Positions 3,949-50,123 of a stretch of DNA of 64,000 nt are shown here, piece after piece. Position 1 is the stretch's first letter. Each line of letters starts with the position of its first letter. Source of the stretch: Paeniglutamicibacter terrestris (lineage in GTDB: Bacteria; Actinomycetota; Actinomycetes; Actinomycetales; Micrococcaceae). The notes under the pieces were generated by a model, which was given only the letters and a program-made list of their open reading frames with translations, was not told the DNA's origin and searched no databases. The stretch spans positions 62,001 through 126,000 of the forward strand of contig NZ_JAAWVT010000004.1 in assembly GCF_012271785.1 (NCBI RefSeq). The letters are read 5' to 3'. Position numbers and translations under genes: made by a program.

Positions 3949-5049
3949 ATGAAAATCACCGCCGCCGTCGCCACCGCCCCAAGTGCTCCCTTCGAACTTC
4001 GCGAACTCGAGCTCGATGACCTGCGTCCCGACGAGGTACGGGTCAAATTGGTGGCGACGGGTGTTTGCCACACCGATGCCATCGTGCGCGACCAGGTCTA
4101 TCCCACGCCGTTGCCGGCGGTGCTCGGTCACGAAGGCTCCGGGGTGGTCGAAGCAGTCGGTTCCATGGTCACCTCCGTGCGCCCCGGGGACTCCGTGGTG
4201 CTCTCGGCGAGCTCCTGCGCAATCTGCGAACAATGCTTGACTGGGCGCCCGGCCTACTGCATCGATTTCTTCGGCCGCAACTTCGCCGGAACCCGCACCG
4301 ACGGATCCACGGCGCTCTCCGACCACGGGACGGCTGTCTCCTCCCACTTCTTCGGCCAGTCATCCTTCGCGACCCACGTCAATGTCGCGGTGCGCAGCGT
4401 GGTGAAGGTCGAGAACGATCTTCCCCTTGAACTGCTGGGTCCGCTGGGCTGCGGGCTCCAGACCGGCGCCGGGGCCGTCATCAACTCCCTCGAGGTCCGC
4501 GCGGGCTCCTCCATCGCTGTCTTCGGCACCGGTGCCGTGGGATCCGCCGCGCTCATGGCGGCCGCGGCCGTTGGTGCAACCACCATCGTTGCCGTCGACA
4601 TCATCGACGCACGCCTGGCCACGGCGAAGGAGCTGGGCGCCACCCACACCATCAACAGCCGCACCACCGATGTGGCCGCGGAAATCGCCCGCATCACCGG
4701 GGAACGGGGCATGGACTACACGCTGGACACCACCGGCATCCCGGCAGTGCTCCGCCAGGCGGCCGACATCCTGGGCATCGGGGGCACTGTCGCCCTGGTC
4801 GGCGCCCCTGCCCCCGGCACGGAAGTTTCCTTCGAGGTCGGCGGTTCCCTGTTGAAAGGGTGGCATTTCCGCACCATCATCGAAGGCGACTCCGTCCCGC
4901 AGGTGTTCATCCCCCAATTAATCGCGCTGTGGAAGCTGGGGAAGTTCCCGCTGGAGAAACTGACCAAGACCTTCCCGTTTTCGCAGATCAACGACGCCTT
5001 CGATGCCTCGGCATCCGGCGACGTCATCAAACCAATCCTCGTCTTCTGA
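3949..5049 (+). CDS. Zinc-dependent alcohol dehydrogenase, aryl-alcohol type
   Basis: A 366-residue medium-chain dehydrogenase. Visible features are the catalytic zinc ligands in GVCHTDAIVRD and LGHEGSGVVEAVG, the structural-zinc cysteines in SSCAICEQCLTGRPAYC (residues about 85-105), and the NAD site AVFGTGAVGSAALMAA. The overall pattern matches aryl-alcohol dehydrogenases of the XylB type, which oxidise benzyl alcohols to aldehydes. The ATG at 3949 is preceded by AGGAG (3937-3941). It is followed 26 bases later by an aldehyde dehydrogenase, which would take the aldehyde to the acid, and it diverges from an AraC regulator. Exact substrate not readable from sequence. Confidence 0.88.
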   Translation: MKITAAVATAPSAPFELRELELDDLRPDEVRVKLVATGVCHTDAIVRDQVYPTPLPAVLGHEGSGVVEAVGSMVTSVRPGDSVVLSASSCAICEQCLTGRPAYCIDFFGRNFAGTRTDGSTALSDHGTAVSSHFFGQSSFATHVNVAVRSVVKVENDLPLELLGPLGCGLQTGAGAVINSLEVRAGSSIAVFGTGAVGSAALMAAAAVGATTIVAVDIIDARLATAKELGATHTINSRTTDVAAEIARITGERGMDYTLDTTGIPAVLRQAADILGIGGTVALVGAPAPGTEVSFEVGGSLLKGWHFRTIIEGDSVPQVFIPQLIALWKLGKFPLEKLTKTFPFSQINDAFDASASGDVIKPILVF

Positions 5050-13521: not shown

Positions 13522-13712
13522 ACGTACCTGAGAGTTTCCATCCTTACCCCGTGAGGGAAAAGGACTTGCTCCTTCGGTGAGCGCGGGCTAAACCGCGCTG
13601 CTTTCCAGATTTGCCTCTTCGTGGCGGTACGGGGGCCTGAGAGTTTCCTGGGGAGGAATTGCTCCTACGGCGCCCGTCCATGGTGTGAACGGGACTCTCC
13701 CGCCACGTGTCA
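13522..13712 (-). ncRNA. Tandem glycine riboswitch upstream of cycA
   Basis: Read on the minus strand, two aptamers of the glycine riboswitch occur in tandem. The first has GGGAGAGTCCCG (about 13690-13701), CGCCGTAGGAGCAA and AACTCTCAGGCCCCC; the second has CACCGAAGGAGCAAG and AACTCTCAGGTA (ending near 13525). These are the conserved blocks around the glycine pocket of each aptamer. The RNA precedes cycA, whose product imports glycine. In actinobacteria such switches usually activate glycine use or, at transporters, repress uptake; the direction here is not evident. Confidence 0.92.
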
Positions 13713-29354: not shown

Positions 29355-29390
29355 GCGGAGGATAGGGGATTTGAACCCCTATCGAACTTG
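29355..29390 (-). other. attL: 3' fragment of a tRNA-Ser gene at the prophage boundary
   Basis: On the minus strand AGGGG-TTCAAAT-CCCCT is a T-arm followed by the acceptor strand ATCCTCC and discriminator G (29356). The matching 5' acceptor GGAGGAT is typical of tRNA-Ser. No anticodon, D or 5' acceptor part exists on the higher-coordinate side, so only the 3' end is present. This is the footprint of phage integration into a tRNA 3' end; the intact tRNA should lie at the right junction, outside the window. Confidence 0.75.
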
Positions 29391-29551: not shown

Positions 29552-29959
29552 TCACGCCTCACCCTCAAGGCGCTCAAATAGATCACGCGCCGCCTGCCCG
29601 CCCTGCGAGTCCAGGGCAGCACGCACGGCTAGCTCCTGCAATAGCTCGGGCGTCGTGAACCCGCTGAGCTTATTTGCGCCCGGCGTGAGTGCCAGCTCGC
29701 CACGCATGTGCCCCAAAGATAGTCGGTCGGCGGGGATGCCGGACTTGCACACCGCCTCGATGATTCCATCGGGCCAGCCAAGTACGGATTCAATCTTGGT
29801 CAGGGTGGCGGATCGGGGCCAGCGGTTGCCCGCTTCAAAATCTTGGTAAACGGATCGGTGCAAGTCCTCGCCGGCAACCATAGTGTCGCGGGAACGTCGC
29901 CCGCGCTCAAGGCGGGCTAGCTCGGCTATGCGACTTTGGGTTGTGTCGAGTTTACTCAT
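29552..29959 (-). CDS. XRE-family phage repressor-like protein
   Basis: A 135-residue protein with a helix-turn-helix in its first 75 residues (RIAELARLERGRRSRDTMVA; DLHRSVYQDFEAGNRWPRSA; LTKIESVLGWPDG). The C-terminal half is helical with no peptidase site. I start at ATG 29959, since the longer frame upstream crosses the operator region. It is divergent from the small HTH gene at 30133, as expected of a lysogeny repressor controlling the early promoter. Confidence 0.75.
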   Translation of the reverse strand: MSKLDTTQSRIAELARLERGRRSRDTMVAGEDLHRSVYQDFEAGNRWPRSATLTKIESVLGWPDGIIEAVCKSGIPADRLSLGHMRGELALTPGANKLSGFTTPELLQELAVRAALDSQGGQAARDLFERLEGEA

Positions 29960-30124: not shown

Positions 30125-30132
30125 GACTAGGG

Positions 30133-30351
30133 ATGGCAGTGATGGAACAGTTTTTCAAGGCCGATGCAGTAGCCGACCTCACCGAATTCACTATCACCAC
30201 CGTCTGGCGGAAGTGCCGCGACAAGCAGTGGCCGCACCACCGTCTCGGTCGATCGTATCGGTTTACTGCCGAGGACATCCGCGAAATTCAAGAGCAGATG
30301 CGGGCCAAGCCCGTGAGCGTTGAGAAACGTGGTAAGCGTCAGGCAATATAA
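30133..30351 (+). CDS. Small helix-turn-helix protein (excisionase-like)
   Basis: A 72-residue winged-helix protein of the MerR/excisionase type: FKADAVADLTEFTITTVWRK (recognition helix) and HHRLGRSYRFTAEDIREI (wing and following helix). It starts the rightward early operon, opposite the repressor. It could be an excisionase or a Cro-like switch. A hairpin TCTTCC/GGAAGA (30353-30368) follows at the stop. Confidence 0.75.
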   Translation: MAVMEQFFKADAVADLTEFTITTVWRKCRDKQWPHHRLGRSYRFTAEDIREIQEQMRAKPVSVEKRGKRQAI

Positions 30352-30419
30352 GTCTTCCACTTGGAAGATGTTTTGGACCTCATAACGTCCCGTTAGATCG
30401 TGAATCATAAACCGGCTGG

Positions 30420-30895
30420 CATAGCGGGGATAGCGATGGCGGGGCCACATAGGGAAAGTTGGACGGCGGGCCTGGGCTAAGGCAAGGTTCCGCTCCGAAC
30501 AGTACAGGGGTTACACCCTAGTTCGGGTCGCTGGTCGCGTAAGTGGCGTGATCACGGTGCACTGGCAGACAGCCGCGGAATGTCTGCGCCGGGGGTAAGC
30601 CCGGCCCGTGGGGAGTGCGAGCGGCCTATCGACCACATCACCGAGTTAGTCGGTGGAGCACTCACCCAACGGGGTGGGATGGATCTAATCGCTACGAATT
30701 AGGTCACACGATGTATCGTTTTGATTACTTACACACCGATCAGTCGCCAAACATGTATCGGCGTGTGCACAATGTAGCATCCCTATTTTCCTAACTCAAT
30801 TGGACGACAGTACGCCGCAAGGCGGTATGGGGTGCGGCCCGGATGGTTTCAGCGATTTTTATCGCAGTTGAGGTTCGATTCCTCAACGGGGCACA
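30420..30895 (+). ncRNA. Large structured RNA candidate of the prophage
   Basis: Nearly 600 bases (30352-30940) lack any coding frame yet are dense in perfect helices. Visible stems: CCGAAC/GTTCGG (30495-30526), GCAGACA/TGTCTGC (30565-30587), GCCGGG/CCCGGC (30588-30605), a long arm CCGTGGG-AGTGC with its complement (606-618 with 658-672 of 30.6 kb) enclosing CACCGA/TCGGTG (30639-30655), and TACGCC-GCAA-GGCGGTA with a GNRA tetraloop (30811-30827). A tRNA-like 3' domain ends it. Strand is taken from neighbouring genes. The class is not recognised. Size and phage setting recall GOLLD/ROOL-type RNAs, but no signature is identified. Confidence 0.55.
30831..30895 (+). ncRNA. tRNA-like domain without anticodon arm
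   Basis: GTGC-GG-CCCG (832-841 of 30.8 kb) pairs with CGGGGCAC (30887-30894) with a GG bulge. It stacks directly on a 6-base T-stem TTGAGG/CCTCAA with the canonical loop TTCGATT (30868-30886). The remainder is a short GCGAT/ATCGC hairpin. A D-arm and a 7-base anticodon loop are missing, so it cannot act as an ordinary tRNA. Confidence 0.55.
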
Positions 30896-30940
30896 TGCAG
30901 TACCCAAACACCTAAACGCTCATTCTGGGGGAATGAAAAG

Positions 30941-31075
30941 ATGATCGACAGCACTATTCCAATGCATCATCACCGGGCATCCATCATCACGATGGAGACG
31001 GAAGAGAAAGAACGCGCGGCGCTTGCAGAGGCCCGAATCACCGGTCAATGGCCGGCACCCGTAACTGCGAACTAA
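30941..31075 (+). CDS. Small hypothetical phage protein (44 residues)
   Basis: ATG 30941 preceded by a purine-rich GGGGGAATGAAAAG. The product is mostly one charged helix (METEEKERAALAEARITG) ending in QWPAPVTAN. A terminator follows 15 bases later, so it may be the last gene of the first early unit. No known family. Confidence 0.5.
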   Translation: MIDSTIPMHHHRASIITMETEEKERAALAEARITGQWPAPVTAN

Positions 31076-31090
31076 GCAAATACCCCACGA

Positions 31091-31121
31091 GGGGGCCAGC
31101 AATGTTGCTGGCCCCCTTTTT
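31091..31121 (+). terminator. Intrinsic terminator with the recurrent phage element
   Basis: GGGGGCCAGCAA/TTGCTGGCCCCC stem, two-base loop, then TTTTT and CGTACCCAAAATC. First of seven copies of a terminator followed by a (G/A)T(A/G)CCC(A/G)AAA-like motif in this prophage. Confidence 0.85.
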
Positions 31122-49634: not shown

Positions 49635-49700
49635 GGGATGGATCGGCGGCTAACCCCGTGCATGGCGATCACAGACGCGGTTCGACCCCGCGGCATCCCA
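49635..49700 (+). ncRNA. tRNA-like block with perfect T-arm
   Basis: GGGATG (49635) pairs with CATCCC (49694-49699); CGCGG-TTCGACC-CCGCG is a perfect T-arm (49676-49692). The rest (35 bases) gives neither a proper D-arm nor a 7-base anticodon loop. Confidence 0.4.
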
Positions 49701-49958
49701 CGGGAAACAGTGCGGCGGCACATGCTCAACACGCATCACAGGGTAGCGACCCACCGCGCGGCATGACACGGGCTTTCAAGCACCTCGGATGATTCATACC
49801 CGCGGGAAGCCATCATGACGCACCAGCAACACCCGCCCGGTGTCTAGAGCCGGACAACACCCTTCGCGGTGCATCGCGAATGACGCCACGGCAAAGACCG
49901 TGATCACATCACCGACGCCACCCTGTCGGCGATCTACGGAGGGGATCAAAATAATCTG

Positions 49959-50029
49959 GGGGAATTAGCTTAGTGGTAGAGCGTCGGACTCCAAACCCGA
50001 ATGCACCGGTTCGATTCCGGTATTTCCTG
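49959..50029 (+). tRNA. tRNA-Trp (anticodon CCA), phage-borne
   Basis: A 71-base cloverleaf: acceptor GGGGAAT/ATTTCCT (two G-T pairs), D-arm GCTT-AGTGGTA-GAGC, anticodon arm TCGGA-CTCCAAA-CCCGA with CCA (one A-C mismatch at the loop base), T-arm ACCGG-TTCGATT-CCGGT, discriminator G. CCA is not encoded. It lies inside the prophage at the early/late border, where it could support translation of late genes or shield from host tRNA damage. Confidence 0.85.
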
Positions 50030-50123
50030 CGATAGACAAGTTGCTATCAGTACCCACCCCGATTGCTACAAGGGTGGGCGGGAAGCGCCCGATATAGCGC
50101 TGCATACTTCACAGGAGGTCACG

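Follow-up and report, generated by a model that had tools for sequence, protein, structure and literature searches.

The window analysed here, a 64,000-nucleotide stretch of Paeniglutamicibacter terrestris DNA, carries a prophage in which the 589-base stretch 30352-30940 is located. Host two-component regulator genes stop at about 29200, before the prophage genes, and the prophage was probably attached on its left side at a sequence resembling a tRNA 3' end (GGGGTTCAAATCCCC, TCCGC; minus strand, about 29356-29385). A repressor-like helix-turn-helix (HTH) ORF on the minus strand (29552-29956; Pfam HTH_3, E 0.0013, under the Pfam cut-off) and an excisionase-like HTH gene (30133-30351; PHROG 1840, E 6.6e-10) are followed by small ORFs in the prophage early region. 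As described in the first-pass annotation, a gene-free gap separates the HTH gene from a gene of 44 residues: the longest plus-strand ORF starting within 30352-30940 counts 59 codons, a 107-codon minus-strand ORF (30127-30450) extends from the HTH gene into the gap, and the putative 44-codon ORF occupies 30941-31075 on the plus strand. The latter has no match in PHROG or Pfam, nor a tblastn match in phages. A terminator had been placed near 31091, and a terminator-like inverted repeat, its 13-bp arms separated by 2 nt, is indeed present before a T run at 31090-31117 (plus strand), although a scan that requires loops of 3-8 nt does not list it on that strand. The ATPase region of the prophage has a short part in common with seven Arthrobacter phage records (one phage occurring twice) at 64-69% DNA identity. 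A second prophage-like locus, with an ATPase that is 52% identical, lies elsewhere in the same genome (G000:C31:117508-118683). The host part of the window contains a glycine riboswitch (13615-13712, minus strand, 68.9 bits).

The first-pass annotation took the stretch for one structured non-coding RNA (ncRNA) of about 590 nt. The helices it named can be read in the sequence (CCGAAC..GTTCGG, GCAGACA..TGTCTGC, GCCGGG..CCCGGC and CGCC-GCAA-GGCG); its statement that pairing is far above chance has to be weakened to a mild excess on the plus strand (z -2.47, 1 of 100 shuffles equally good), against a larger one on the minus strand (none of 100 shuffles equally good, z -3.67). For the 485 nt upstream of the tRNA-like unit described below the values are z -2.50 on the plus strand (2 of 60 shuffles equally good) and z -2.53 on the minus strand (0 of 60). 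Given the mild folding of the plus strand, the better folding of the minus strand and the equality of both once the tRNA-like end is left out, a discrete large RNA is not supported.

DNA homologues of the stretch were found neither in phages nor, outside its own genome, in 147 relatives. Among 395 genomes of the family (its own included) 41 others gave short matches only (19-67 nt, E 5.6e-5 to 0.05), which are chance-like. Blastn detected nothing like the stretch in nine related ATPase loci, of which one lies in another part of its own genome and eight in other genomes, and the 8-kb early region gave no match in plasmids. The sole DNA copy found is an IMG/VR contig, identical over the 6.5-6.9 kb compared, which may be the same isolate as the window prophage. 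A large structured phage ncRNA of the GOLLD or ROOL type would suit the size and setting of the stretch and its plus-strand z-score. GOLLD RNA is found in Mycobacterium phage Rope (locus L031, 22644-23104, 180.6 bits, at an unannotated place), which is also rich in the tRNA mimics discussed below, so both can share a genome. Nonetheless, GOLLD (RF02032) and ROOL, alike in phage setting, have no match in the window, and no Rfam model at all matches 30352-30940 at the gathering threshold (three sub-threshold matches are chance-level, E 4.7 to 8.9). With no homologue either, and with a minus strand that does better against its own shuffles, we consider an RNA of this type very unlikely.

The part that precedes the tRNA-like unit (30352-30836, plus strand), starting behind the excisionase-like gene, is devoid of a long plus-strand ORF, of Rfam matches and of homologues. 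It perhaps serves the early region as promoter and leader, a reading based on phages Oaker, Rope and phiScoe54, where the first early gene is likewise preceded by a long gap that ends in a tRNA-like unit (by eye). The scanner described below matches this leader-end unit in phiScoe54 only, and of the three leaders that of Oaker alone folds well (z -3.19, against 0.03 for Rope and -0.83 for phiScoe54). A sigma-70 consensus scan of 30352-30836 yielded no site. In the early leader of phiScoe54 (L032 370-620) repeated TTGACACACTGACACAG...TAGAGT segments are visible by eye that appear promoter-like.

The tRNA-like 3' end reported by the first-pass annotation was recovered as a unit at 30837-30894 (plus strand), which resembles a recurrent, covarying phage element. 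Its likely 5' acceptor strand GCCCGG (30837-30842) forms five of six pairs with 30887-30892, leaving one G:G mismatch. Then follow a D-loop-like linker ATGGTTTCA containing GG (30843-30851), which we compared with linkers such as ATGGTCGCAG of other phages, and the hairpin GCGAT-TTTT-ATCGC (30852-30865) in the place of the anticodon arm. The anticodon arm had been called lacking; this is correct for the decoding loop and incorrect for the arm, given these 5 bp and their TTTT loop. After the dinucleotide AG comes the T-arm (30868-30886), with a 6-bp stem TTGAGG/CCTCAA and loop TTCGATT (7 bp if G30867 pairs with C30887), and the unit ends in the 3' acceptor strand CGGGGC, A73 and C74 (30887-30894), with no CCA.

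Folded alone, 30837-30896 forms a cloverleaf without decoding loop (-23.6 kcal/mol), composed of GCCC/GGGC, a 3-bp D-stem (GGA/TTC) whose loop contains the GG, the hairpin with the TTTT loop, and a T-arm of 7 bp. In longer pieces around the unit other folds win, one of which pairs GTTTC (30846-30850) with GGGGC; this GTTTC, or the start of the small hairpin, is a rival 5' acceptor strand. Because the longer pieces fold otherwise and the class model R2 (see below) uses yet another 5' strand, the acceptor of the window unit is ambiguous. A seven-base anticodon loop, as in a functional tRNA, is replaced by TTTT; ARAGORN does not call the unit, and ARAGORN and the Rfam tRNA model report only a phage tRNA-Trp gene (CCA anticodon) at 49959-50030 of the window. 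Neither ARAGORN nor Rfam finds a tmRNA in the window. The 3' part of the unit is 86-90% like annotated phage tRNA-Pro and tRNA-Gln genes (and the Miko tRNA) over 30-36 nt (E 0.03 to 0.1). This likeness in sequence suggests that the unit descends from a tRNA, and it is also the reason why a decayed tRNA gene is weighed as a rival explanation below.

A T-loop scan of the nine related ATPase loci led to a unit in one of them (L028), which consists of an acceptor and a T-arm without D-arm or anticodon arm and lies directly before the ATPase gene. Compared with phages, its sequence matches 144 records at 467 places (110 records being Streptomyces phages and 25 Mycobacterium phages), and among the matches listed 57 of 60 carry no annotated feature. 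Queries with single units from Rope and SWU2 matched 169 and 141 records, respectively, partly true tRNA genes or short T-arm matches. When the gaps of annotated phages were read in turn, units appeared in one after another: about 40 nt, with an acceptor stem stacked on a T-arm, a GG-bearing linker in which a D-stem is absent as a rule, no decoding loop, no annotation, and often a second hairpin directly 3'. A search of 23 loci and of the window with Rfam at the gathering threshold names none of the units.

For counting we used a scanner that calls a unit where a T-stem, a loop of the form TTCRANN and an acceptor stem occur together. On the sense strand it finds 14 units in the locus of Rope, nine each in those of phiScoe54 and Oaker, three in Octobien14 and one in SWU2, against none on the opposite strand and a mean of 0 to 0.4 in shuffles of the same loci. 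Twelve annotated actinophage loci, each picked for a BLAST match there, contain 63 scanner matches, of which 60 are intergenic even though 83.5% of the DNA is coding. As 61 matches are on the plus strand of their locus and the other two lie among minus-strand genes, all 63 are in sense orientation. Some scanner matches probably arise by chance or represent attachment sites or true tRNAs (L028 986-1030, L007, L024, L025 and the tRNA-Trp gene of the window). Two of the 12 loci, Korra and WilliamStrong, gave no scanner match; their predicted folds look like longer tRNA-like units with several inner arms (WilliamStrong L253 2864-3177, before DNA polymerase I; Korra L248 2909-3066).

The 60 intergenic units, which are not independent of each other within one phage, are placed regularly: in 48 the first base is no more than 20 nt away from a stop codon (one unit has no upstream gene on its own strand), and 48 end 30-55 nt before the next start codon. 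The linker contains GG in 59 units (shuffled linkers: mean 35.9, maximum 44), G1 is present in 56, R73 and C74 in 58 each, and C75 in only two. The T-arm counts 6 bp in 51 units, and acceptor and T-stem together measure 11 bp in 34, 12 bp in 25 and 10 bp in one. Sequences next to the units fold better than their shuffles, with means of -9.95 against -5.95 kcal/mol for the 34 nt on the 3' side (60% at p 0.05 or less) and -8.54 against -6.24 kcal/mol for the 34 nt on the 5' side (23%).

Pairing was assessed on viral contigs with a search pattern consisting of linker and T-loop, the acceptor being left out. At least 120 stretches were obtained and 80 loci examined, and in the matches listed a scanner unit is found in 74 of these 80 contigs and not in the other six. 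The matches listed comprise 114 distinct elements, 96-99% of which form each of the five acceptor pairs (49-83% when shuffled); the next position outward pairs in 7%. A occupies position 73 in 83% of them and G in 14%, and C occupies position 74 in 96%. In an alignment of 79 sequences (A1; at most two per contig, chosen regardless of pairing) 97.1% of cells are paired against 65.9% in shuffles, with 269 changes on both sides of a pair against 85.8. A second type with a 6-bp acceptor (16 sequences) is 100% paired against 69.2% shuffled, a figure that is biased by selection with the scanner. This covariation belongs to the class that the 3' unit resembles; the only other copy of the window sequence is identical to it.

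tRNA 3' ends are common attachment sites, and one might regard the window unit as a DNA site for attachment or recombination derived from such an end, the more so as a likely attachment site exists at about 29356-29385. In the class, the compensatory changes, the sense orientation and the many copies per genome argue for an RNA instead, and a DNA search finds no second copy of the window unit in its own genome; the chance that a DNA site explains the observations is close to negligible.

The window copy is a probable member of this class of tRNA top-half mimics. Its T-arm (TTGAGG-TTCGATT-CCTCAA) has the stem of 5-7 bp and the TTCRANN loop of the class, ATGG (30843-30846) provides the linker GG if GCCCGG is the acceptor strand, and A30893 and C30894 stand at positions 73 and 74. 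If the ORF at 30941 is a gene, the unit is intergenic, in sense orientation and within the 30-55 nt range, the ATG sitting 46 nt past C74 and 48 nt past the acceptor strand. With respect to the class acceptor of 5-7 bp continuous with the T-arm the window copy is ambiguous, GCCCGG/CGGGGC having one mismatch and two other 5' strands competing. Class model R2 ranks the unit first in the 64 kb (22.3 bits, E 0.023; next match 14.6 bits), in an alignment that takes in just three of six acceptor pairs, and class model R1 ranks it third (12.0 bits, T-arm only). The scanner score is 29.2; a motif of at least 26.3 occurs in 21 of 20,000 shuffles of the region, with stem limits that were loosened after the motif had been seen. 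The window prophage holds one such unit, at best two, against up to 14 elsewhere. A weak second candidate lies about 260 nt upstream of the tRNA-Trp gene (49635-49701, plus strand; scanner 30.0 with a 35-nt linker; R2 11.8 bits, E 3.9). Longer linkers with an inner hairpin exist in other phages as well, for example Indlulamithi 4333-4395. Possible further degenerate units at 30552-30672 (by eye: ACTGGCAGACA and a GAGCGGC arm) were discarded, as neither R1 nor R2 reports anything there.

It might be argued that the window unit is a decaying phage tRNA gene, unrelated both to the minihelix class and to processing, given that it folds alone into a cloverleaf and that its 3' part resembles phage tRNA genes. 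Its T-arm, however, has 6-7 perfect pairs, compared with five in a tRNA and mostly six in the class; the distance to the ATG is also that of the class, the R2 match is the best of the window, and ARAGORN makes no call. We consider simple decay improbable.

With regard to known systems, the nearest thing to the class is the tRNA punctuation of mitochondria. There too, according to PMC9181182, tRNA-shaped units or organelle tRNA-like sites stand between the genes of a polycistronic transcript; the phage units differ in being minimal and in belonging to DNA phages of bacteria, and their cutting is a proposal. The same minimal body, an acceptor stem with T-stem and T-loop, is found in RNase P substrates of the AT1 type (PMC11143913), compared with which the phage units are natural, repeated in operons, equipped with a GG linker, devoid of an encoded CCA and putative as substrates. 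The same source also describes M3 and the antisense C4 RNA as phage transcripts cut by RNase P. In a full-text literature collection from which most subscription journals are missing, we found no account of tRNA top halves that recur from gap to gap in phages, and an earlier description is possible; Konstantine figures in an early comparison of mycobacteriophages (PMC3029335), the consulted passages of which do not mention such units. The mimics seem to have been overlooked.

M3 and C4 are single RNAs and are not known to be repeated between genes. The tRNA-like domain of tmRNA has an acceptor, a T-arm and a D-loop without proper stem, and lacks an anticodon arm; the unit shares these parts, without the tag frame and pseudoknots of tmRNA. 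Bacterial RNase P reads G1, R73, C74 and the elbow formed by the D- and T-loops, and the conserved G1, R73, C74 and linker GG of the class would fit such recognition. The absent encoded CCA speaks against it at the level of sequence, and so does the geometry, since 34 of the 60 units stack 11 bp where a tRNA stacks 12. For E. coli RNase P, two sources report that CCA is needed in such minimal substrates (PMC5723415) and preferred in a phage T4 precursor (PMC11143913).

Our preferred explanation, to which we attach about an even chance, is that the 3' end of the stretch is tRNA-derived and a probable variant of the class, and that the class serves as operon punctuation by tRNA-processing enzymes. 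RNase P would cut the polycistronic phage mRNA at the 5' side of each mimic, perhaps followed by trimming behind position 73 by RNase Z or exonucleases. The transcript would thereby split into units, the new 5' end of which might be shielded by the mimic or the next hairpin. Applied to the window, this would make the unit the boundary at which the early-region leader stops, and the mRNA of the ORF at 30941 would owe its 5' end to it.

The main rival to punctuation is shielding without cutting: the class would be real, acting as a stable block against exonucleases or Rho or as a translation insulator, with tRNA-binding proteins at most holding on. The regular stop-to-start placement, the second hairpin right behind the unit and the missing CCA all agree with an uncut block. 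For that purpose a plain hairpin would suffice, however, and the conserved R73 C74, G1, linker GG and T-loop letters would be left over; we therefore rate an uncut block as rather unlikely, though a serious contender. Punctuation can tentatively be stated in a wider form, which we hold slightly more apt to fail than to stand: in phages with double-stranded DNA that infect two or more bacterial phyla, host RNase P, and perhaps RNase Z, cuts messages at intergenic 40-nt acceptor/T-arm units, much as in mitochondria, and the window unit, with its four-base loop in place of an anticodon loop, represents an intermediate between a tRNA and a minimal mimic. If this is true, phage mRNA processing would be tied to host tRNA enzymes, the early operons of actinophages would have an explanation for many of their unannotated gaps of some 90 bases, and a ready system would be at hand to find the smallest part of a tRNA that suffices for RNase P in the cell.

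The reach of the class beyond phage records was examined in bacterial genomes. None of 396 genomes of the phylum contains the type-1 pattern in its exact form, with the G of the T-loop fixed, a result that fits a phage element and proves nothing. R1 gave no match in the 396 genomes (16 of thousands of candidates scored per genome) and R2 gave one, G026, in 295 genomes of the family (21 of thousands scored per genome); with so few of the candidates scored, these whole-genome searches say little. The same acceptor-free pattern, applied to one genome per species, yielded 90 stretches, of which 80 loci were examined. One near-identical, non-pairing sequence that is probably coding accounts for 21 of them, mostly in Massilia, Duganella and Janthinobacterium. 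Two loci pair inside predicted tRNAs only, and 31 pair outside predicted tRNAs (including two pairs of near-duplicates); locus L176 contributes no entry to this comparison.

By record name and general knowledge, we take these 31 to comprise 17 Bacteroidota, 10 Actinomycetota and four others. Of the proteins compared with protein families, five belong to HTH or unknown families (three) or match nothing (two), and a Corynebacterium locus has a scaffolding-like protein (E 1.4e-9). At four Bacteroidota loci the large downstream ORF is a transposase (PHROG 310, E 1.1e-18 to 7.2e-58), the distance from unit to ORF, measured to the first start codon, being 16-260 nt; we infer that these four loci are Mu-like phages.
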